NCBI GenBank assembly: GCA_027063225.1
Contig: JAMOSG010000036.1
Location: 35,990-99,989 of the forward strand
From: Helicobacteraceae bacterium
GTDB taxonomy: Bacteria > Campylobacterota > Campylobacteria > Campylobacterales > Sulfurimonadaceae
Direction: 5' to 3'
Length of the DNA stretch: 64,000 bases
In this document: piece after piece, positions 48,606 to 63,842 of the stretch
Layout: every line of letters starts with the position of its first letter
Position numbering within the stretch: position 1 is the stretch's first letter
Program-made: the position numbers and the translations under genes
The notes under the pieces: model-generated
Seen by the model: only the letters and a program-made list of their open reading frames with translations
What the model was told of the DNA's origin: nothing
Databases searched by the model: none

Positions 48606-49225
48606 TAGACTCTCACTTTTAACACTAAAGCAACTCTATCAGAAATCTCTAACTTTTCAAAAATATGTTTTATATGCACTTTAACAGTAGGTAAAGAAAG
48701 AGTTAATTTTTGAGCTATCTCCTTGTTAGAAAGTCCTTGTGCTACAAGTATCGCTATTTGTTCTTCTCTTGTTGTTAAAAGAGAAAGTATCTCTTTATTA
48801 AAGCTATCTTTTCTTTCACTGTAATGATTAACCATATATAAGGTCAATTCTTTAAAAAACCATTTATTCCCATCTTGAATCGTTGCAATCATTTGCTGTA
48901 AATTCACCGGTGCTAAATAACTATTTTCATACCCTTTAAGTTGAGCTTTATTGAGCAAGTTTAAAGCATGTTGGAGTGTCGGTTTTTTATTAAAGAGTGC
49001 AATATTTACAAAAGGGTATAATTCCATTTTTAAAAAAAATTCTTCTATATCTAAACAACTGTTCTCATCTGCTAAGATCAAAACTTGTTGGGTTGTCCCT
49101 TTTAAATAATTTTCCAAAGTTTCCAACTCTTCAACTATTATAGTTTGATTATCAATCGATCTTTTCCAAAATTTTTGTAAAGAGGGAGAAGTTGTAAAAA
49201 GATACAAAGTCATTTTAACGCTCAC
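48605..49225 (-). CDS. LuxR-family regulator with degenerate receiver (CsgD-like layout)
   Basis: C-terminal LTTREEQIAILVAQGLSNKEIAQKLTLSLPTVKVHIKHIFEKL. Confidence 0.88.
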   Translation of the reverse strand: MSVKMTLYLFTTSPSLQKFWKRSIDNQTIIVEELETLENYLKGTTQQVLILADENSCLDIEEFFLKMELYPFVNIALFNKKPTLQHALNLLNKAQLKGYENSYLAPVNLQQMIATIQDGNKWFFKELTLYMVNHYSERKDSFNKEILSLLTTREEQIAILVAQGLSNKEIAQKLTLSLPTVKVHIKHIFEKLEISDRVALVLKVRV

Positions 49226-50597
49226 TCACTACATTTTGACTTGCACGCAAAAGGGGTTTTAAGATAAAATCTAACACACTCTTTTTACCTGTAATAATAT
49301 CTACATCTGCTGTCATCCCAACAATCACCTGTAATTTATGCCCTTTTTTTTCTAAATAGTTTCTATCTGTTTTAATATAAACCAAATAATAATTTTTTCT
49401 ATCTGCTTTATCTTCTATAGTATCTGCACTAATACGAATAAGTGTACCACCTAAAGAGCCATAAACAGCAAAATCATATGCAGAAAATTTAACAATTGCA
49501 CGTTGTCCAACATGTAAAAAAGCTATGTCAGATGGTCTAATTTTTGTTTCTATAACCAAACCATCTTGAGATGGAACTATTTTTACAAGATCCATACCTG
49601 GTTTAACAACACCACCTATTGTATTTACCAAAAGCTGTTTAATAGTTCCATCAACTGGCGAACGAACATCTGTTCTTCTTACTTTATCTTCTTTGGCAAT
49701 ATTACTTTTTTGGATCCTTTGCATTTGGGCTTGAACTTCGTTATATTTCTCTTTTGCTTTATTAGCAAAGGAGAGTTTTAATTCCCTTATTTTACTTTTT
49801 TGCTCTTGTATTTTAGATTTTAAACGGGGGATAGAGAGCTGTAATTCTTCAATTTCACCTTTTTTTGTCGCTAGCTCTCTTTTTAGTTTTAAAAAATCTA
49901 CTTCAGCAACTAAATGTTTTTTAAATAGTGGTTCATTAAGCTCCACCTCTTTTTCTAAAAGCTTATAATTATTTTGTAGATTTTTAATTTTTAAAGCAAC
50001 TTCTTGAAGCTCACTCTCTTTTTGCTTTAACTGTTGCTGAAAAATAACAATATTATTTTTCAACTGCTCTTTATTTGTCAAATATAAAGAATACTCATGA
50101 ACTATCAACTTTCCAAGATCTCTTTTTAAGCTTTTAGTTAAAGAAAAACTACTCTCTCCAGCTTCAGCAAGTAAACGAATACTTTTAGCACGAAGTTCAT
50201 CATAACGTAGTTTAGATTCTACATAAGTGGATGCAAAAGAGGTGTCATCAATTTTTATAAGAATATCACCTTTATCTACATGCTGCCCCTCTTTTACTAA
50301 AATATCACTAACAATTCCACCCTCTAAGTTTTGAATTGTTTGTACTTTATTTGAAGGGATAACTCTTCCATTACCTCTTGTTAATGTATCTATCTTGGCA
50401 TAATATGCCCAAACAATCAGACTTACAATAGAGATTACAACACTCCATAGTAAAATTCTTAACTTTGTATGCTTTAAAGTTAAAATCGCTCCACTTAAAG
50501 AGTTCATATATTCACTATCTGAAAAATTTTTAATTTTAATTTTCTTTAACTCATCAGGTGTATAAGTATAATTAACAATTTTTTCTTTAAAATTCAT
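49215..50597 (-). CDS. T1SS membrane fusion protein (HlyD/LapC family)
   Basis: GNGRVIPSNKVQTIQNLEGGIVSDILVKEGQHVDKGDIL, coiled coil, C-terminal beta domain. Confidence 0.93.
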   Translation of the reverse strand: MNFKEKIVNYTYTPDELKKIKIKNFSDSEYMNSLSGAILTLKHTKLRILLWSVVISIVSLIVWAYYAKIDTLTRGNGRVIPSNKVQTIQNLEGGIVSDILVKEGQHVDKGDILIKIDDTSFASTYVESKLRYDELRAKSIRLLAEAGESSFSLTKSLKRDLGKLIVHEYSLYLTNKEQLKNNIVIFQQQLKQKESELQEVALKIKNLQNNYKLLEKEVELNEPLFKKHLVAEVDFLKLKRELATKKGEIEELQLSIPRLKSKIQEQKSKIRELKLSFANKAKEKYNEVQAQMQRIQKSNIAKEDKVRRTDVRSPVDGTIKQLLVNTIGGVVKPGMDLVKIVPSQDGLVIETKIRPSDIAFLHVGQRAIVKFSAYDFAVYGSLGGTLIRISADTIEDKADRKNYYLVYIKTDRNYLEKKGHKLQVIVGMTADVDIITGKKSVLDFILKPLLRASQNVVSER

Positions 50598-50599
50598 AC

Positions 50600-52738
50600 C
50601 TATCTTCCTTGAAGTTTCGATAAAACTTTTTCTTTTTTATCATCCAAAACAATTTTACCATCCACCAATACCATTACCCTATCTACTAACTGTAAAAGCG
50701 TATGTTTATGAGAAATAAGAATAAAAGTTTTATCTTTTACAATACTAGGCATCTGTTTTAAAAAATAATTTTCATTATAACTATCCATTGCACTTGTTGG
50801 TTCATCAAACAATATAAATGGCGTTTCATACAGTAATGCCCTTGAAAGTGCTACAAGCTGCTTTTGACCACCAGAGAGTCCATCACCTCTTTCTGCAATA
50901 GGCATATAAAAACCTTGTGAATCTTTATTTACAAATTTATCAAGACCTGTTAATTTTGCTACTTCTACTATTTCATCATCTGTTGCATTTGGCTTTCTAA
51001 CAATAATGTTATCTTTTAATGTCCCACTAAAAAGTATCGTTTCTTGTGGTACATATGCCATATTCTCTCTCAAATCTGAAGCGTCTAATTGATTAATATC
51101 TATATCGTCTATTAAAATAGTTCCCTCTGTTGGCTCATAAAGTTTTAAAATCAATTTTTGAATTGTTGTTTTTCCTGAACCATTAGCACCAATAATAGCT
51201 AAATTTTCTCCTGGATTGATTACAAAACTTACATTATCTAAAACTTTTTTCTCACTATTTGGGTAAGAAAAAGAAACATTTTTAAATTCTATTTTGCCAT
51301 TAAATTCTTCCCTAGCAATAAACTTCTGCTCATTTTCACCCTCTTGTTTCATAATAGAATCTAATACAGTATATGAATTTTTTGCCTGTTCAAAGTTAGC
51401 AATTAAAGAAGCAACTTGCCCTAATGGTGCTAACATTCTAGAAGATAACATTACAGTAGCAATTAAAGCTCCCATAGTTAATAGCTGCTCTGAAATAGCA
51501 TACACTCCACCAATAATTATAAGTACGGTATTGATATGCACTACAAAACTCACAACATTTGAAACAGAATTTGAAAGGAGCTTAGATTTTATCCCTTTCG
51601 TAGCTACTTCTGCTGTAGCTTCTTCAAATTTCCATTGAGAATGTCCACTTATTCCTAAAGCCTTTATAATTTCTATAGATGATAAAGCCTCAATAAGAAT
51701 AGAGTTTTTCATAGAAGAAGCAACATGCGTTCGCTCTACAGCATTTTTCATAGGTCTTTCAATAAATAAAGAGTATAAAATAATAATTAAAGCACTAAAA
51801 ATAGGTATAATAACTAACGATCCACTTAAAAAATATATCGTAAATAAAAACAAAAAACTAAAAGGTAAATCTACTAAAACACTAATCGTAGAAGCATTAA
51901 AAAAATTTCTTAAAGTATCAAAATCTTTAATATTACTTGCAAAAGAACCAACAGATTTTGGTTTATATTTTAACTTTAAACTCATTACATGTTCAAAAAT
52001 AATAGATGAAATGATAATATCACTTTTTTTAGCGGCTGTTTCTAAGAAATAGGAACGTAAAAACTTTAGAATAAAGTCAAATATGTAAACTAAAACTATA
52101 CCACTTACAAAAACCCACATCGTATCTATAGCATTATTTGGTACTACCCTATCATAAATATTTAATGTAAAAATAGGTGTTGCTATAACAAACAAGTTAA
52201 TAATAAAAGATGCAACAATTACATCAATATAAATATTTTTAGAGTACTTTAAACTACTCCAAAACCAATGTTTTGTGTCTTGTTTAAGTAAAGATTTGTG
52301 GAGGTTATCATAGTTTAATTCAGGTTTAACTAAAAATGCATATCCTAAATACTCCTTTTGAAGCTCCTCAAATTTAACCCAATTTTCTGCTCCTTCTAAA
52401 TCTGGCAAAATTATTTTAACAAACTTCTTATCTGCAGAAATTTCAGTTAAAATACAAGCTCCATCATTTTTTAACACTAAAATAACAGGTAAAAGTAAAA
52501 CTGATATATCCTCAAGCGTATAATTAACAAGTTTTGAATGGAAACCTGCTTTTTTAGCTGCTCTAAAAAAAAGGGATTTAGACTTTGTGTCTTCAACACA
52601 AAAAAGAGATGGTGTTTTTTTGCCATCCTCTAAAGGTAAAGAAGAGACAAGTGCTTTTGCACTCATTGGGCGGTTATAAATTTTTGTAAGAATAACCAAA
52701 CTATCTAAGAGAGGGTTTTCACTACTGCTCGACAACAA
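50600..52738 (-). CDS. T1SS permease/ATPase (LapB/LssB family) with N-terminal C39-like domain
   Basis: TM domain, GANGSGKTTIQKLI, LSGGQKQLVALSRALL; C39-like domain without obvious catalytic Cys. Confidence 0.93.
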   Translation of the reverse strand: MLSSSSENPLLDSLVILTKIYNRPMSAKALVSSLPLEDGKKTPSLFCVEDTKSKSLFFRAAKKAGFHSKLVNYTLEDISVLLLPVILVLKNDGACILTEISADKKFVKIILPDLEGAENWVKFEELQKEYLGYAFLVKPELNYDNLHKSLLKQDTKHWFWSSLKYSKNIYIDVIVASFIINLFVIATPIFTLNIYDRVVPNNAIDTMWVFVSGIVLVYIFDFILKFLRSYFLETAAKKSDIIISSIIFEHVMSLKLKYKPKSVGSFASNIKDFDTLRNFFNASTISVLVDLPFSFLFLFTIYFLSGSLVIIPIFSALIIILYSLFIERPMKNAVERTHVASSMKNSILIEALSSIEIIKALGISGHSQWKFEEATAEVATKGIKSKLLSNSVSNVVSFVVHINTVLIIIGGVYAISEQLLTMGALIATVMLSSRMLAPLGQVASLIANFEQAKNSYTVLDSIMKQEGENEQKFIAREEFNGKIEFKNVSFSYPNSEKKVLDNVSFVINPGENLAIIGANGSGKTTIQKLILKLYEPTEGTILIDDIDINQLDASDLRENMAYVPQETILFSGTLKDNIIVRKPNATDDEIVEVAKLTGLDKFVNKDSQGFYMPIAERGDGLSGGQKQLVALSRALLYETPFILFDEPTSAMDSYNENYFLKQMPSIVKDKTFILISHKHTLLQLVDRVMVLVDGKIVLDDKKEKVLSKLQGR

Positions 52739-54032
52739 TATTCATCTCCGAAAGTAATAAACCCGTATGATACAGAAGTTCATAATAACTTTTCATCTGA
52801 TCATATTTTAATGTAACTTCTAAATTTTTTGCACTATCATATTCAGATTCAACGCCTAAAATATCTGTAATAGTTCTTCCACCTAATTCATATTCATCTA
52901 AATAATCAGTACGTGTTTGTTTTGAAGCTTTTAAGTAACGTTTTACAATTTCATATCTCTTTTGAAGTGTTTTATATTTATCAAATGCTATTTTTAATGA
53001 AGATTGAATATACAACTTTGTATCTCTTAAAGATTCTTGTTCTTTAAGTACTTTATGCTTAGCAGATTCTACTGCTGCATCTGTAGACAAACCTTTAAAT
53101 AAATTATAGTTCACAACAAAAAGTGCATTATATCCTTCATCTGTATCAATTGGATTTGGATTTTCTGGAGTTGAATATCCTACACCACCAACATTTTTAT
53201 TGTTATATGCTTTCAAAATAAGATCAACCGTTGGATAATATCCAGATTTTGATGTTCTAACACTCTCTTGTTGAGCATCAATAATATTTTGCTGCTTTAA
53301 TATTTTTGGATTAGAAACCCATGCTAGTTTAATTAAATCTTCAATCTTTGAAGATGGTAGTTTATGTAAAATTGGATCTTCAAATTTTGAAGGGTCTTGC
53401 AATTTTGGAAGAAGTCTTTGTAGCTGATAAACTGCTGTTTGATAATCTTGTTTAGCCATCAGCTCTAAATTTTTTACATTTTCTAAACGAGCCACTGTTT
53501 GAATATAATTTGAATGTACTTCTAAACCAGCATCAAATCTCTCTTTAATTTTTGCAACATACTCTTTATATGTTTTTGTTGTTGCTTGAGCAATAGAGTA
53601 AAGCTTTGATTGCTTCAACACTTCAATATAGGTTGAAATAGCATCGTATGCAAAATCACTTGCAACAGTTTGTGCATCATTTTTAGAAGACAAAACTAAA
53701 AAATTCTTTCTTTTTACTTCACTCTTTGTAGAAAATCCAGCAAAAAGATTTTCTTTTAAAGTAATCGAGATTTCCTGTCTTGTTAAAGAAGCCTTTTCTC
53801 CATTATTTGCAGGAGTTTTTGTTATCTCTGGACCAATTGCAAAATAAAGATCTATAGAGGGTAAATATCCATTTCCTTTTAATCCTTTAAGCTCTTGCAC
53901 TTGTGTATTAACCACCTCTTTTTTCACTTTTATCTGAGGGTTTGTATATAAAGCATCTTGAATAACTTCATTTAAAGATGTTGCAAGTAAAAAAGATGGC
54001 ATAACAAGCAAAAGTAATCTATTTATTTTCAT
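52722..54032 (-). CDS. TolC-family outer membrane protein
   Basis: Signal peptide, helical repeats, DYLDEYELGGRTITDILGVESEYDSAK. Confidence 0.93.
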   Translation of the reverse strand: MKINRLLLLVMPSFLLATSLNEVIQDALYTNPQIKVKKEVVNTQVQELKGLKGNGYLPSIDLYFAIGPEITKTPANNGEKASLTRQEISITLKENLFAGFSTKSEVKRKNFLVLSSKNDAQTVASDFAYDAISTYIEVLKQSKLYSIAQATTKTYKEYVAKIKERFDAGLEVHSNYIQTVARLENVKNLELMAKQDYQTAVYQLQRLLPKLQDPSKFEDPILHKLPSSKIEDLIKLAWVSNPKILKQQNIIDAQQESVRTSKSGYYPTVDLILKAYNNKNVGGVGYSTPENPNPIDTDEGYNALFVVNYNLFKGLSTDAAVESAKHKVLKEQESLRDTKLYIQSSLKIAFDKYKTLQKRYEIVKRYLKASKQTRTDYLDEYELGGRTITDILGVESEYDSAKNLEVTLKYDQMKSYYELLYHTGLLLSEMNIVVEQ

Positions 54033-54120: not shown

Positions 54121-54840
54121 ATGTTATTTCAATTTTTAAAAAAAGAAACTAAATTACAACATTTTTGTGATCTACATTCACATCTTTTACCTATAGATGA
54201 TGGAGTAAAAGACTTTTCTGAAGCCTTGCTTATTATAAAAGAATTAGAAAATCTTGGCTTTAAAAAACTTATTATAACACCTCATATAAATAATCGTTTT
54301 ACAAATACAAACAAACAAGTTTTAAAAAGTTTCAATCTTTTAGAACAAAAAATAGTAGAAGAAAAATTATCTATTCAATTAGAAGTTGCAGCTGAATATA
54401 ATTATGATGAAGTTTTCTTTGAAGCTATAAAAAATAACTCTCTTCTTAGTTTTTCAAAAGAAAAATATGTTCTTTTTGAATTTCATAAACATCATAAACC
54501 TTTAAACTTAGAACATACTATTTACAACTTACGTAAACTAGATTATCAACCTATTTTAGCACACCCAGAAAGATACCCATTTTATAACACTCTAGATGAA
54601 TATCAAAAACTAAAAGAGATGGGGCTACTCTTTCAAATTAATTTACTTTCTCTTGAAAAATTTTATTCAAAAGAAAGCTACAAAAAAGTTAAATTACTTT
54701 TAGATAATGGCTTGGTAGATTTTCTTGGAAGTGATATACACAATAGTTCAAAATACTTAGAAGTCTTCAAAAAATCCCTTACTAGTAAAAACTACCAAAA
54801 AATATTTCAAACAAATACTATTAAAAATAACTATTTATAA
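54121..54840 (+). CDS. PHP-type protein-tyrosine phosphatase (CpsB/YwqE-like)
   Basis: DLHSHLLPIDDGVKDFSEAL, ITPHIN, PILAHPERYPFY, GSDIHNS. Confidence 0.92.
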   Translation: MLFQFLKKETKLQHFCDLHSHLLPIDDGVKDFSEALLIIKELENLGFKKLIITPHINNRFTNTNKQVLKSFNLLEQKIVEEKLSIQLEVAAEYNYDEVFFEAIKNNSLLSFSKEKYVLFEFHKHHKPLNLEHTIYNLRKLDYQPILAHPERYPFYNTLDEYQKLKEMGLLFQINLLSLEKFYSKESYKKVKLLLDNGLVDFLGSDIHNSSKYLEVFKKSLTSKNYQKIFQTNTIKNNYL

Positions 54841-57173
54841 TAGTGTTGTGCACCATAAGCTTTCCCATAGCCATAACCACCACCATAACCATAATAGCCT
54901 GTTACAATCTTACTACCATTTAAAATCATACCAAATTTATTATCTTTATGTTCATTTACAAGTTTATCAATATCTTCTACAAACTCTTTACGTGTATAAT
55001 CTATACGAGTTACAAACAAAGAAAGATCACAATATTTCATAATAATAACTGCGTCTGTTACTAAACCTGCGGGTGCTGTATCTATGATAATATAATCGTA
55101 TTGTTTCTTAAGAATCTCTAATAATTCCTTGAATTTTTGTGATAACAATAACTCTGAAGGATTTGGAGGTAGTGGACCTGTTGTAATAATATCTAAATTT
55201 TCATATCCAGTTTCTTGTAATATCTCTTCTAAAGTATTATGACCTGAAAGATATGTTGTAATTCCTATATTGTTCACAACATCAAATTCTTTGTGTAATG
55301 AAGATTTACGTAAATCTATATCTAGAACTACCACTTTTTTCTCTGCTGTAGCTAAAATCATTCCCAAGTTAGAAGTTAGAAGTGTTTTACCCTCTCCAGA
55401 AACAGAAGAAGTTACAGAGATAATACGATGTTGCTCATTTCCTGGTAAAAATTGTAAATTTGTTCGTAAATTTCTAAAAGCCTCTTTAAATAAAGATTTG
55501 TCTTTATCTGTTTTCATAAGAGGAATTTCTCCATAAATAGGCATATCTGTTAATTCTTCTAACTCCTCTCTACTTTGAAGAGTTACAATTAAATACTCTC
55601 TAAAAAATGCTAAAGAGATCCCTATAATAAGACCCAAAATAAATCCAACTGTTACAATTAATTTCCTTTTTGGTTTAATTGGTATTTTATTTTCTATTGC
55701 TGTATCTAAAATACGAGCATTTGAAATTGTAGAAGATTTTAAAATCGCTGTTTCAGCCTTTTTCTGGAGTAAAAACTCATAAATTTGTTGGTTTACTTTC
55801 AAAGGTCTTAAAAGTTCTGCCAACTTTTTCTCTTCTGTTGGTAAAGATTGTAAAGATTTATCAAATTTGCGAATCATATTACCAAGATGTAAACTTCTTT
55901 GGTTTAACTGCTCTAAACTATTTGCAATAGAAAGGCGAATAGCTTTTTTTGCTAACTCAATACCAACTTCAACTTTTCTAACTTCTGGATGTTGTGGTGT
56001 AAACTCCATTAAAAGTTTTGCTTTTGTATCTATAAGCCCTCGTAAACTTGTTAACAACAGTGCTATTCTTCCATCTGAAAACTTCATAGAACCTATAGAA
56101 AGTCCACTTAAATCATCATGGGTTTGAATATATTGTTTAATATTATTTAAAATATTTATCTCTGTTTGTAGTTCAAGTTGTTGCGCTTCATACTCCACAA
56201 CTTTTTGTGTTTTTAATGCAACTTTACCTTTTAAATCAACAACAGAGTGTTGAATTTTATAATTCTCCAGATTTTTCTCCGAGTTTCTCAAATTTGCATT
56301 AATAACGTTAAGTTGAGAGTCTATAAAACCTAATGTCAAACCAGCAACAATAGTTTTTTGCTTAATCCCCTCTTCTATATATGTTTTTGTAATAGCATTT
56401 AAAATATCTTTTGCTCTTTTTGAAACATTATCTTGATAAGAAAGTTCAACAACACTTGCCCAATCAGACACAACCTTTACAGAAAGATTTGTAATAAAAT
56501 TGTCATAAAGTTTTGTAACACTTGTAACTTTAAAAGTATAAAGAGGATTTTCAAGTTCATCTTTTTTCTCGACTTTTAATGTAAAATACGGTGTTGTAAT
56601 CTCTTCATTGTAACGATGTATCTGATTGTAACTAAAAAGATCTTCTTCGCTTAAGTGTTTTAAACCAATCTTTGCTAAAACTGCATCAGAACTATAAGGT
56701 GAAATAGGCTTTAAAACTAATCTAAAATGATTTTGTTCTATTGGTTTTAGTTGAAATTTCTTACCAAATAAAAAATCTGTTTTATATAAAACACTAACAG
56801 TAAAAGGGGTGTTTTGATAAAGTTCTGTTTCTTTATGCAATTTGTTTTCTGAAAAATAACGTATTGTTAAATCAAGTGTCTCTAATGCTTTTTGAACAAT
56901 AAATCTTGATTGTAAAACAGCAATTTCATTGTCAATATTAGCACCATTTTTACCCATGGCCATACTTAACATATCGGCTTGTGTACTTCTACTATTTCTT
57001 TCTAAAATTTCTACACTTGTATGTGAACTATAAATATTTGGTTTATAGTAGGCAAAGACTCCACTAAGTAAAGTTGCTATAAGTGTTATAAAAAAGATAG
57101 AAAATTTATATTTTTTAATAACTTTAAAAACATCTTTAAGATCTAATTCTTCACTATTTCTTTCATTTTTCAT
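54831..57173 (-). CDS. Wzc-like polysaccharide co-polymerase / BY-kinase
   Basis: Wzz domain, VTSSVSGEGKTLLTSNLG, VVVLDIDLRKSSLH, Tyr-rich C-terminus GYYGYGGGYGYGKAYGAQHYYK; start moved to MKNERNSEE. Confidence 0.93.
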   Translation of the reverse strand: MKNERNSEELDLKDVFKVIKKYKFSIFFITLIATLLSGVFAYYKPNIYSSHTSVEILERNSRSTQADMLSMAMGKNGANIDNEIAVLQSRFIVQKALETLDLTIRYFSENKLHKETELYQNTPFTVSVLYKTDFLFGKKFQLKPIEQNHFRLVLKPISPYSSDAVLAKIGLKHLSEEDLFSYNQIHRYNEEITTPYFTLKVEKKDELENPLYTFKVTSVTKLYDNFITNLSVKVVSDWASVVELSYQDNVSKRAKDILNAITKTYIEEGIKQKTIVAGLTLGFIDSQLNVINANLRNSEKNLENYKIQHSVVDLKGKVALKTQKVVEYEAQQLELQTEINILNNIKQYIQTHDDLSGLSIGSMKFSDGRIALLLTSLRGLIDTKAKLLMEFTPQHPEVRKVEVGIELAKKAIRLSIANSLEQLNQRSLHLGNMIRKFDKSLQSLPTEEKKLAELLRPLKVNQQIYEFLLQKKAETAILKSSTISNARILDTAIENKIPIKPKRKLIVTVGFILGLIIGISLAFFREYLIVTLQSREELEELTDMPIYGEIPLMKTDKDKSLFKEAFRNLRTNLQFLPGNEQHRIISVTSSVSGEGKTLLTSNLGMILATAEKKVVVLDIDLRKSSLHKEFDVVNNIGITTYLSGHNTLEEILQETGYENLDIITTGPLPPNPSELLLSQKFKELLEILKKQYDYIIIDTAPAGLVTDAVIIMKYCDLSLFVTRIDYTRKEFVEDIDKLVNEHKDNKFGMILNGSKIVTGYYGYGGGYGYGKAYGAQHYYK

Positions 57174-57183
57174 TCTAATCTCA

Positions 57184-57978
57184 TTAATAAATTGGGTCAC
57201 CCTGAATTGTTGTCCATTGAACAAATGGTGCTAAGATACTTGTAATTGTACTGAAAAATGGGGAAACCTCTTTAAAGGCTTTATTAAATCCATCCATCTG
57301 TCTTGCTTGAACATACACAATATCGTTTGGTCTTAAAATTAAACTTGTTTGTTGAATAGCACTTAACTTTGTTAAATCTATAGTTCTAATCTCTGGATTG
57401 CGTAAATCTCCACGAATCACTTTAATATTTGTTCTTTCTGCTAAGGAAGTAAAATAACCAGTTCTTGAAATAACCTCTATGAGGTTCATAGTACCATTGT
57501 AAATGGGAACAACTCCAGGTTTATTAACCTCACCTATAACAATGATACGCTGATTTGTAATTTTGACTGTTACATAAGGATTTTTAATAAACTTTCTATA
57601 CTCTTTCGCTAGTGCTGCTGCTGCTTGATCTTCTGTAAGACCAGCAATCTTTACTGACTGAATAATAGGTAAACGGACTGTACCCTTTTGTGTTACTAAA
57701 AGACCATCACCCTCTTGTAATGTTGTATCTAGTTCAAAAGAATCAGACAAAATTGGTTTCATTAACTGAGAGTTGAGACTATTTTTACTATATACACGAA
57801 TAAGAACACGATCATTTGGAGCAATTTTATTTTCATATTTTAACTCATATTTATACTCTTCATAAGTTAATGTTGAATTGCGTTCTACCCCATCTTTCAT
57901 CTGAAAAAGTCTATCATCTTTTACACTACATGCTGAAAATAGTATAGAAAAGATTACTGTAATAAAAACCATATGCAT
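57184..57978 (-). CDS. Wza-like polysaccharide export lipoprotein
   Basis: Lipobox FSAC, PES domain, SLBB VIGEVNKPGVVPIYNGTMNLIEVISRTGYF. Confidence 0.92.
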   Translation of the reverse strand: MHMVFITVIFSILFSACSVKDDRLFQMKDGVERNSTLTYEEYKYELKYENKIAPNDRVLIRVYSKNSLNSQLMKPILSDSFELDTTLQEGDGLLVTQKGTVRLPIIQSVKIAGLTEDQAAAALAKEYRKFIKNPYVTVKITNQRIIVIGEVNKPGVVPIYNGTMNLIEVISRTGYFTSLAERTNIKVIRGDLRNPEIRTIDLTKLSAIQQTSLILRPNDIVYVQARQMDGFNKAFKEVSPFFSTITSILAPFVQWTTIQGDPIY

Positions 57979-58059: not shown

Positions 58060-59214
58060 TTAGTTATTATCTATTAACTGCTTAACAGTAATATATGCTT
58101 CATCAAGCCTACTATATGTTAAGGTATATATTTTAAGAGTGGCTAGGTATTCTAAATATTTTTTTAGACTTTCAAAATTTTCTCTTTGATGAAGATGATA
58201 CCCTGAGTTTACCAAAAAATTTAAACTTTCCACTAAACTTAATGGTTGCAATTTACACACAACCCCTTCTTGATATTTTGGGAATATCATAAATGCTTCT
58301 TGTGCATATATAGTATGTGTCGCAATATTTTTAGGCGTAATATACTTTACTTTTTGATAATCAAAACGTCTATATACTTTTGCTTCTTTTATCTCTTTTT
58401 CTAATCCCGTAAGAATTTTCCAACTACCCTCTTTTAGTGTTAGAACTAGAGGTAAAGGGTGTATGTTATACTCTGTATCGACAAGTGTTACCTCATCAGA
58501 ATAAAAGTTAAAGTTTTCTTTTTGCATCAAAAAAGCACTTAAAGTACTTTTACCAGAACCAGAAACTGCTGGAAAAATAATGGGTATATTATTGTATGAA
58601 AACATAGCTGCATGAAGAGCAATAAAAAAATTATTGTTTTCATAAATAGTAATACGTACTAAATCTTGCAAATACCCTAAAACAACACTACTTTGAATGT
58701 TTTTATGTACTTGCTTACCATTTATGTAAATACTAAAAAAATCACCCTCTTGCGTAACTTTAAAGATATATTTACATCTACTTTTTTTCTCTAAAACTTT
58801 AAGATGTTGAAATACTATTAACACCTCTTGTTGTATCGAAGAAGGAAGTTCAAAAGAGAAAACAACACCATATAATGAATATAAAACAGGGGTCATACAC
58901 TCCTTTGTTATTTTAGGGATTTCTCGTTCTACATAAACTGTAGTAGCTTTCTCCTTTTTTTCTTTTTTATCCAATAAAGAGGCAATAGTTTCCACCATAT
59001 CTAATGTTGCAGTGTTTTTTGGCAGTTGTAATGCCTCTAAATATCCTTGTATAGATATTGGATCTCTTTTTTCTTCCATATAGAAAAAAAGAACACCATA
59101 TTGAGTACTAAAGCTATATAATGCATAAGTGATTTTTGACCAAACGAAAATAACATCTGCACTCTCTAGCTTAAACACAATAAGATGTTCATGCTTTGTT
59201 GTAAAATACTCCAA
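58060..59214 (-). CDS. HprK-like serine kinase homologue in EPS locus
   Basis: FPAVSGSGKSTLSAFLMQKENFNFYSDEVTLVD (P-loop followed by HprK-type acidic motif). Confidence 0.82.
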   Translation of the reverse strand: MEYFTTKHEHLIVFKLESADVIFVWSKITYALYSFSTQYGVLFFYMEEKRDPISIQGYLEALQLPKNTATLDMVETIASLLDKKEKKEKATTVYVEREIPKITKECMTPVLYSLYGVVFSFELPSSIQQEVLIVFQHLKVLEKKSRCKYIFKVTQEGDFFSIYINGKQVHKNIQSSVVLGYLQDLVRITIYENNNFFIALHAAMFSYNNIPIIFPAVSGSGKSTLSAFLMQKENFNFYSDEVTLVDTEYNIHPLPLVLTLKEGSWKILTGLEKEIKEAKVYRRFDYQKVKYITPKNIATHTIYAQEAFMIFPKYQEGVVCKLQPLSLVESLNFLVNSGYHLHQRENFESLKKYLEYLATLKIYTLTYSRLDEAYITVKQLIDNN

Positions 59215-59229
59215 TAAACTCTTTTTCTC

Positions 59230-59412
59230 CTAATCACTTTCCCATGGTAAACCAGAAGCTGCTGCTTTAGAAGAACCCAATGTCATCATTGCAAAACCAG
59301 CTACAGGTGCTGAAGCTGCATATTTACCAAATTTTTTTATAAACTCACGCTTTTTAGCATCTGCAATCTTTTGTGTTGTCTCTTGCGCTTTTTTATTGTC
59401 TTTCTCTTTCAT
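59230..59412 (-). CDS. 60-aa short peptide with Tat-like leader
   Basis: Strong RBS (AAAGGTGG N6 ATG); KKREFIKKFGKYAASAPVAGFAMMTLGSSKAAASGLPWESD. Confidence 0.8.
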   Translation of the reverse strand: MKEKDNKKAQETTQKIADAKKREFIKKFGKYAASAPVAGFAMMTLGSSKAAASGLPWESD

Positions 59413-59476
59413 AATTTTCCACCTTTGTTTACTTAATATGACTCAATCATAGCATATTTTTTCTTAAAAATATAGA

Positions 59477-60625
59477 TTAGAGATATTTATTTTTCAATTT
59501 ATTTTTTAATATTTCTCTTTTATCCTTATCTAAATACTTAAATAATGTATTTTTTATGTGCTTAAAAAAATAGAATATATATAAATTCTTATTTTGAAAT
59601 CCATACTGTACTTGTAATCCAGATACAGAAAAAACATTAAAAAAATAGATAATAAATGCTCTAAAAGTTCTCAAAAAATTATTATCTAAATTTAAGAAAT
59701 ATTCTACATTTTTTATATATTTTCTGGAGTTTTTAGTTTCTATAATATTTAAAGGTATATAAAAATATTTTTTTTGTAAAAGTAAATATTCATTCCAATA
59801 ATTTTTTATAAAACTATAATTTGATACTTGTTCATAAATTTTTTCTAACTCTATTTTCTCTTTATTTGTATACAATAATTGATTAAAATGTTGTGCGTAT
59901 CTTAAAGCAAAAACTTTATATTGATGGTGAGCATGACTAACTTCAGAATGTAAAAAAGATAAATAAAATTCAGATGTTTCATCTAAAACGTTTGCATTAT
60001 TAATAGTCGCACTTTCTAAGAATGAAATTTTCTGAAAAAAATATTTTGAACTTTTATCATTTAAAAAATATCGATGTATTTCAATAGATGCATAAAAACC
60101 ATCTTTTACTAAAGGGTAATAGTGATGCCAATCTTCTTTTAAATAATAATCATGTTCCACTTCATTATATCCATTCATTTTTAAAATTTTTATTGCTCTA
60201 TCAATTTTTGAAGGTTCAATATAAAGATCTATATCAGCCATAACCCTTTCACCAAGATATTCAAAAACTCCTTCACTTAAAGCAGCAGAACCTTTAAAAA
60301 AAATAGGTGTTATATTTACTTGTGCTAAAATATTTGCAATCTCTTGCATTTGCTCTATTATATTTTGATTTCTTTGTTTGTTTAAATTATATATTTCTAA
60401 TAAATATTCTTTTAATTGTTTATCATCTAACTTATCATAAAGTTTTTTCTTTTTTAAATTTGTATAAACTAAAGGTATTAAATACTCTTTGTTTGCTATC
60501 TCTATAACTTTTTCCCAATCAGTTTTAAAAAAATATTTTTCTACATATTTGTTTTCAAAAGGGGAAATAAGCGATGTAAGAAATAAAAGAATCTCATTTT
60601 TTTGCAAACAACAACCTCTTTTCAC
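59477..60625 (-). CDS. NTP_transf_5-like nucleotidyltransferase family protein
   Basis: PIFFKGSAALSEGVFEYLGERVMADIDLYIEPSKIDRAIKIL signature; true start uncertain. Confidence 0.85.
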   Translation of the reverse strand: MKRGCCLQKNEILLFLTSLISPFENKYVEKYFFKTDWEKVIEIANKEYLIPLVYTNLKKKKLYDKLDDKQLKEYLLEIYNLNKQRNQNIIEQMQEIANILAQVNITPIFFKGSAALSEGVFEYLGERVMADIDLYIEPSKIDRAIKILKMNGYNEVEHDYYLKEDWHHYYPLVKDGFYASIEIHRYFLNDKSSKYFFQKISFLESATINNANVLDETSEFYLSFLHSEVSHAHHQYKVFALRYAQHFNQLLYTNKEKIELEKIYEQVSNYSFIKNYWNEYLLLQKKYFYIPLNIIETKNSRKYIKNVEYFLNLDNNFLRTFRAFIIYFFNVFSVSGLQVQYGFQNKNLYIFYFFKHIKNTLFKYLDKDKREILKNKLKNKYL

Positions 60626-63345: not shown

Positions 63346-63612
63346 CTATTTGTAAATATCCTTTCTATGTCCAACTGAAATAACAGTTATAATAAGTTTA
63401 TCGTCCTCTTTTTTGATAATAACTCTATAATTACCAACCCTAAGTCTGAACTTTCCTTTATGATTACCCTGTAATGATTTAAGATTATTTTTTACAATCT
63501 CCGGATCTTTTGCCAATAGTAATAATTTTTCTTTAATTAGTTTTTGTGCAATACTATCTAATCTCTTAAACTCTTTTTGAGCACTTGTTAAAAAAACTAA
63601 TTTATAAATCAA
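63346..63612 (-). CDS. RelE/ParE-family toxin
   Basis: YKLVFLTSAQKEFKRLDS, GKFRLRVGNYRVIIKKEDDKLIITVISVGHRKDIY. Confidence 0.92.
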   Translation of the reverse strand: MIYKLVFLTSAQKEFKRLDSIAQKLIKEKLLLLAKDPEIVKNNLKSLQGNHKGKFRLRVGNYRVIIKKEDDKLIITVISVGHRKDIYK

Positions 63613-63614
63613 CT

Positions 63615-63842
63615 CTATATACCTAACTCTTTAAAAACTTCTTCTGCCGCTATTAGTTTTTCTTTGCCATCTTTGAGTTTATCAAGGCGTTTATCTGCTA
63701 TTTTTTCATCAATATAATCAAAGTACATACTTAATGCTTTTTCTACAATATGACTCTTTTTTTCATTTAACTCAGAAGAAACAGTATTAAGCTCATCGAT
63801 GATAAAATCTGAAACTGTAAATGTACTTCTAACTTTCTGCAT
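63615..63842 (-). CDS. RHH-type antitoxin
   Basis: STFTVSDFIIDELNTVSSELNEKKSHIVEKALSMYFD; directly upstream of relE-like toxin. Confidence 0.85.
   Translation of the reverse strand: MQKVRSTFTVSDFIIDELNTVSSELNEKKSHIVEKALSMYFDYIDEKIADKRLDKLKDGKEKLIAAEEVFKELGI

Follow-up and report, generated by a model that had tools for sequence, protein, structure and literature searches.

A conserved short peptide with a Tat-like leader beside an HprK-like kinase and a nucleotidyltransferase: a probable precursor of a serine-modified peptide

The window analysed here, a stretch of 64,000 nucleotides of DNA from a member of the Campylobacterota, encodes a 60-residue peptide (59230..59412, minus strand) that is real and conserved. 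Judged by analogy with published systems, it probably serves as substrate in a phosphorylated-peptide pathway. We regard it as the precursor of a linear, leader-guided and exported peptide that is modified on Ser53, a reading to which we assign as a whole a probability of roughly 0.62, and of which the chemistry, the export and the role are the parts that we infer. It is founded on the homology of the leader across phyla, on a fixed Ser, on the HprK/PEPCK-type fold of the adjacent kinase with its invariant His, Lys and Asp residues and its RRE-like N-terminus, on the D-x-D site of the NTP_transf_5 nucleotidyltransferase, on the presence of the cassette in each of the five Campylobacterota genomes in which the kinase was detected, on published pairs of kinases and NTP transferases that modify a peptide Ser (PMC13381572, PMC9266682), and on a polysaccharide context like that of the loci for linear polyphosphorylated peptides (LPPs). 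Counted against it were the KR pair of the Campylobacterota leaders, a non-significant profile comparison for the RRE-like part, four leader copies without kinase and nucleotidyltransferase genes nearby, and the absence of a visible effect of LppN. The earlier note on this DNA had already proposed a RiPP-like precursor, and this was largely right.

The reading frame of the peptide begins with ATG and comprises 60 codons, with coordinates and translation identical to those given before, and a ribosome-binding-site-like sequence, AAAGGTGG (59419..59426, minus strand), can be read six bases 5' of the start codon. It lies between the NTP_transf_5 gene, from which it is separated by 64 bp, and the gene for the HprK-like kinase, which follows after 15 bp. 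The leader (residues 1-52; 59257..59412, minus strand), as delimited by alignments and by the leader HMM described below, contains the motif KREFIKK at residues 21-27 (59332..59352, minus strand), a weakly hydrophobic stretch (Kyte-Doolittle mean of 1.31 for its best 15-residue segment) and a KAAA/S site; the initial description of a Tat-like leader is supported. Predicted cleavage after AAA would yield SGLPWESD (59233..59256, minus strand), an eight-residue core whose first codon (59254..59256, minus strand) is that of Ser53, the proposed phosphate acceptor. Scans of both Pfam and NCBIfam returned no model for the window peptide, nor did any of the peptides scanned match a family above the cut-offs. 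Peptide and kinase share one reading frame in the window (59206-59240), with a single stop codon and a few further codons between them, and likewise in the genome G240 (L034, around 2600-2660). This arrangement could point to a fusion of the two by readthrough of the stop codon, an idea that was rejected as the frames differ in the genomes G095, G171 and G487.

Homologues in equivalent positions, whose absence would have spoken against the proposal of the earlier note, are present in other Campylobacterota. The second genome of the genus (G095) encodes a 59-residue peptide with 52% identity over residues 4-54 (E 1.3e-9); genes for a kinase and an NTP_transf_5 protein come directly after it, and the chromosomal place is unrelated to that of the window cassette. 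The third genome of the genus (G487) has a 95-residue peptide, a kinase and an NTP_transf_5 gene, and this cassette directly follows genes for an export protein, a Wzc-like and a CpsB-like protein, a set of polysaccharide neighbours that it shares with the window cassette. Two genomes from another family of the order, G171 and G240, encode peptides of 139 and 65 residues, each followed by kinase and NTP_transf_5 genes. The peptide therefore adjoins both genes in each of the five Campylobacterota genomes found with the kinase, and the suggested link to the HprK-like enzyme is supported. Few genomes carry the kinase: 3 of 135 in the genus and 3 of 298 in a sample of the phylum. When a combined leader profile was run against 397 Campylobacterota genomes, three strong matches (E <1e-18) were obtained, all of them beside the kinase, and ordinary Tat-type signals were among the weaker matches; one scan of genome contigs recovered a single locus, already known, and scans of viral contigs and phages gave no relatives of the peptide. 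One might still suppose that the peptide is a small protein in its own right, exported by means of a Tat signal, and that it lies beside the two enzyme genes by chance; its lack of a Pfam or NCBIfam model and the existence of leader copies remote from such genes would fit. Its constant company with the kinase in Campylobacterota, at unrelated chromosomal places, together with the confinement of strong leader matches to kinase neighbourhoods, makes such a coincidence highly improbable.

Two weak matches within the genus (L021, L030) were rejected as pieces of unrelated frames. In G095, the kinase frame stays open upstream of its GTG, yet none of the common start codons occurs there (L031, 8507-8612), due either to a non-standard start or to a sequence error. 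The gene directly before the peptide in G171 and G240 (L086, 7788-9035; L087, 7680-8957) encodes a lipoprotein-like protein that resembles a repeat propeller and matches Cytochrom_D1 weakly.

The family extends beyond this phylum. A tblastn search of plasmids with the window kinase retrieved alphaproteobacteria only, and short reading frames with a similar leader were found near the kinase and NTP_transf_5 genes of many such plasmids, from Ensifer, Sinorhizobium, Rhizobium, Leisingera, Novosphingobium, Parasedimentitalea and Methylobacterium. An HMM was built from 12 alphaproteobacterial leaders alone and run on 494 reading frames of at least 30 residues from the window and three Campylobacterota loci; it matched exactly the four peptides that adjoin a kinase, with E-values from 2.8e-7 to 1.4e-6 (2.8e-7 for the window peptide), and the best frame outside the family reached an E-value of 0.76. 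Shuffled frames scored at most 6.6 bits, as compared with 22.6-24.8 bits for the four peptides. Because of this match and of the homologues beside the kinase, the peptide reading frame is more than a chance occurrence. Four alphaproteobacterial copies of the leader, in S. meliloti and Bradyrhizobium, are located without a kinase or NTP_transf_5 gene within 6 kb (L048, 5968-6297; L049, 5977-6252; L050, 6007-6228; L053, 5995-6303), and that of L048 is near a glycosyltransferase gene and a gene annotated as glf (UDP-galactopyranose mutase). A GNNG(W/Y)GNG motif behind the leader recurs in several of the rhizobial tails (L036, L041, L048, L050, L053, L058). Very large surface-type proteins are encoded near two kinase loci, one LamG-like in Methylosinus (26.5 kb gene; L037, 1-122) and one Ig-like in Leisingera (6.9 kb gene; L051, 1-5485).

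The alignment of these homologues confirms the expectation that leader and C-terminus behave separately: the leaders align across the family and the tails do not. R22, G29, A32 and S53 are invariant in an alignment of 16 rows. Residues were tallied over 20 members, five from Campylobacterota and 15 from alphaproteobacteria, and a Ser at the leader-core border is present in all of them, 31-34 residues after the K/R-R pair. Counted from the K of KR, the distance is 32 residues in each of the five Campylobacterota members; counted from the first R of RR, it amounts to 34 residues in 13 of the 15 alphaproteobacterial members and to 31 in the other two. This Ser is directly followed by G in 18/20 members and is preceded by an A-x-A-like site in most, and the distance from it to the end of the peptide ranges from 8 to 97 residues, the window peptide being the shortest.

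Since this Ser is fixed at the border while the C-terminal residues vary, the constant hydroxyl residue at the predicted leader-core border is Ser53 and not the terminal Ser-Asp, which had initially been put forward as the target of the kinase. In favour of the latter idea are the ESD end of the window peptide and the lasso-peptide kinases PadeK and PsmK, which modify the C-terminal Ser of lasso precursors (PMC9266682); only three of the 20 members end in Ser, however, and one in Asp. The acceptor residue proposed earlier is thus probably wrong, and we consider a kinase directed at the C-terminus very unlikely.

The kinase gene (58060..59214, minus strand; TTG start) matches the HprK-related kinase A model TIGR04352 with an E-value of 9.3e-25, and its score of 87.3 bits stays below the curated cut-off of 200 bits. 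Structure predictions, for which alignments of the window and the genome loci only were used, gave kinase models that match PEPCK and HprK structures. His201, Lys222 and Asp240 are invariant among the kinases compared, and the next residue (Glu241 in the window) is either Asp or Glu; in our mapping, this arrangement agrees with the His-Lys-Asp-Asp residues that lasso-peptide kinases are reported to have (PMC9266682). The N-terminal region of about 80 residues is predicted to form three strands followed by three helices. Its prediction is poor in the window protein and better in the G240 orthologue (pLDDT mostly 67-89), and in a comparison of the G240 model with the PDB, the sole matches outside PEPCK/HprK among the top 50 were the two chains of 5v1u, a structure of the lasso RRE TbiB1 and its leader peptide, at prob 0.89 and 0.77 and E about 0.1. 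In the Methylobacterium relative, this place is occupied by a Pfam PqqD domain (E 4.9e-9), and in Sphingomonas a separate PqqD gene (TIGR04353) is part of the same block; no separate gene of the PqqD family adjoins the window cassette. On these grounds, an RRE-like (PqqD-like) domain covering about residues 1-82 of the window kinase (58969..59214, minus strand) is likely, not proven, as a direct profile comparison of this region with the alphaproteobacterial N-termini was not significant.

The leader might also not be a Tat signal. It could serve solely as a modification leader recognised by the RRE, with the RR/KR pair used for kinase recognition and the A-x-A site cut by another protease. 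The KR pair in 5/5 Campylobacterota members would agree with this, as would the RRE-like domain itself and a conservation exceeding that of a usual signal (G29, A32, a Pro, and the fixed distance to the Ser). The RR pair is found in 15/15 alphaproteobacterial members, however, and most of these have RRxFLK-type or RR-x-F-(L/I/V)-K-like motifs; the A-x-A-like site, the weak hydrophobic region (means of 0.73-1.85 among the members), a TatC gene and the ordinary Tat-type signals among the weak profile matches likewise argue for export, and we judge a leader without any Tat function to be somewhat unlikely. Tat export, as suggested in the earlier note, is accordingly plausible from the motifs, and it is weakened by the KR of the Campylobacterota members. 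A few Tat signals in nature do function with KR in place of RR.

The second enzyme of the cassette, the NTP_transf_5 nucleotidyltransferase (59477..60625, minus strand; PF14907, E 1.9e-31), has K111, G112, R127, D131 and D133 invariant over ten relatives, and its D-x-D site (Asp131, Asp133) is therefore intact. Family matches place the cassette among polysaccharide genes, which encode an export protein (57184..57978, minus strand), a Wzc-like chain-length/tyrosine autokinase (54831..57224, minus strand) and a CpsB/CapC-like phosphatase (54121..54840, plus strand), together with a glycosyltransferase and a heparinase-like protein. Among the genes adjoining the window cassette there is no dedicated RRE, peptidase or exporter gene, and no lasso cyclase or B2 peptidase. 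A type I secretion set (HlyD-like protein, ABC transporter, TolC-like OEP; 49215-54032) is located near the polysaccharide genes; its ABC transporter lies 6 kb from the cassette and has no counterpart in the stretch read around the G487 cassette.

The closest published parallel is provided by the LPPs (lppAKBSDN), described in 2026 as restricted to Bacillota, whose precursors have a conserved N-terminus and a variable C-terminus and whose loci are often tied to capsule genes (PMC13381572). In a linear core peptide, LppK of Paenibacillus alginolyticus modifies Ser3 with between one and four phosphates, LppN is present without visible effect in the published host, and the final product and its role are unknown according to that study (PMC13381572). 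The window cassette resembles these loci in its precursor beside an HprK-like kinase and an NTP transferase, in the absence of a lasso cyclase from the adjoining genes, in the conserved and variable halves of the peptide with a Ser near the predicted leader-core border, and in its polysaccharide surroundings; by position and gene set, Ser53 is the best counterpart of LppA Ser3. LPP leaders, in contrast, contain the motif YxxPxVLxHQxIxFETxxS (PMC13381572), whereas the leader of the window peptide is Tat-like, and [YW]xxP was not found in the aligned leaders. LPPs further possess a discrete RRE (LppB), where the window cassette has a predicted RRE-like domain inside the kinase, as well as the SpI-like peptidase LppS and the MsbA-like exporter LppD, neither of which adjoins the cassette. 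The cassette would thus work like an LPP system, yet it should not be filed as one because the YxxP motif is absent and genes for a discrete RRE, a signal-peptidase-like enzyme and an exporter are not beside it.

In the lasso peptides paeninodin and pseudomycoidin, a kinase (PadeK, PsmK) and a nucleotidyltransferase (PsmN) also act on a peptide Ser, PsmK phosphorylating and PsmN subsequently glycosylating it in pseudomycoidin (PMC9266682, PMC8498205). In these systems the modified Ser is the C-terminal one, and a cyclase and a B2 peptidase turn the core into a lasso; a C-terminal Ser is an exception in the family of the window peptide. Both the alphaproteobacterial leaders and the published YxxPxLxxxGxxxxxTx are compatible with a lasso-type L(x)3G(x)5T spacing, although as a lead only, since the leaders here have no YxxP and those of Campylobacterota have lost the Thr. 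The cassette is related to the HPr-rel-A system (TIGR04352; TIGR04353, PqqD family chaperone), with which it shares the C-terminal half of the kinase and the NTP_transf_5 neighbour, and in which a Sphingomonas protein of 161 residues with a Tat-like leader of different sequence is encoded beside kinase, PqqD and nucleotidyltransferase; it differs in its sub-threshold kinase score and in lacking an adjoining PqqD gene. TIGR02811, the formate dehydrogenase region TAT target, is likewise a very short protein with a Tat-type leader and is weakly matched by the Methylobacterium relative (E 0.016); the window peptide does not match this model and adjoins the kinase and NTP_transf_5 genes instead. 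The literature searched contained no mention of an HprK-related kinase, TIGR04352 or PF14907.

For a precursor modified on Ser53, we envision that the RRE-like domain of the kinase binds the conserved leader, so that the kinase could phosphorylate, and possibly polyphosphorylate, the Ser just behind it; the nucleotidyltransferase may then add a nucleotide or sugar to the phosphate. The Tat-like leader would carry the product to the membrane and be cut at the A-x-A site, and the short decorated peptide would be released into the periplasm or the surface polysaccharide, where it may play a role in that layer. No support was found for a membrane-tethered regulator, another function considered at the outset. 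If true, the linear phosphorylated peptide class would be wider than Bacillota and would include Campylobacterota and Alphaproteobacteria, among them the tractable Sinorhizobium meliloti; in these groups, the two enzyme types of LPPs and a Ser in a similar position are combined with an export-type leader. A coupling of modification to Tat export would be suggested, and the link to surface polysaccharide would become testable. A bolder proposal, unlikely in its entirety, is that these phosphoserine peptides form a class that spans phyla: their leader would be both RRE-recognised and a Tat signal, modification would take place in the cytoplasm prior to Tat translocation, and the minimal form of eight residues with one constant Ser would be an exported carrier or anchor for surface polysaccharide. 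Elsewhere in the window (63346-63842), two short reading frames of 88 and 75 residues resemble, by eye, a toxin-antitoxin pair.
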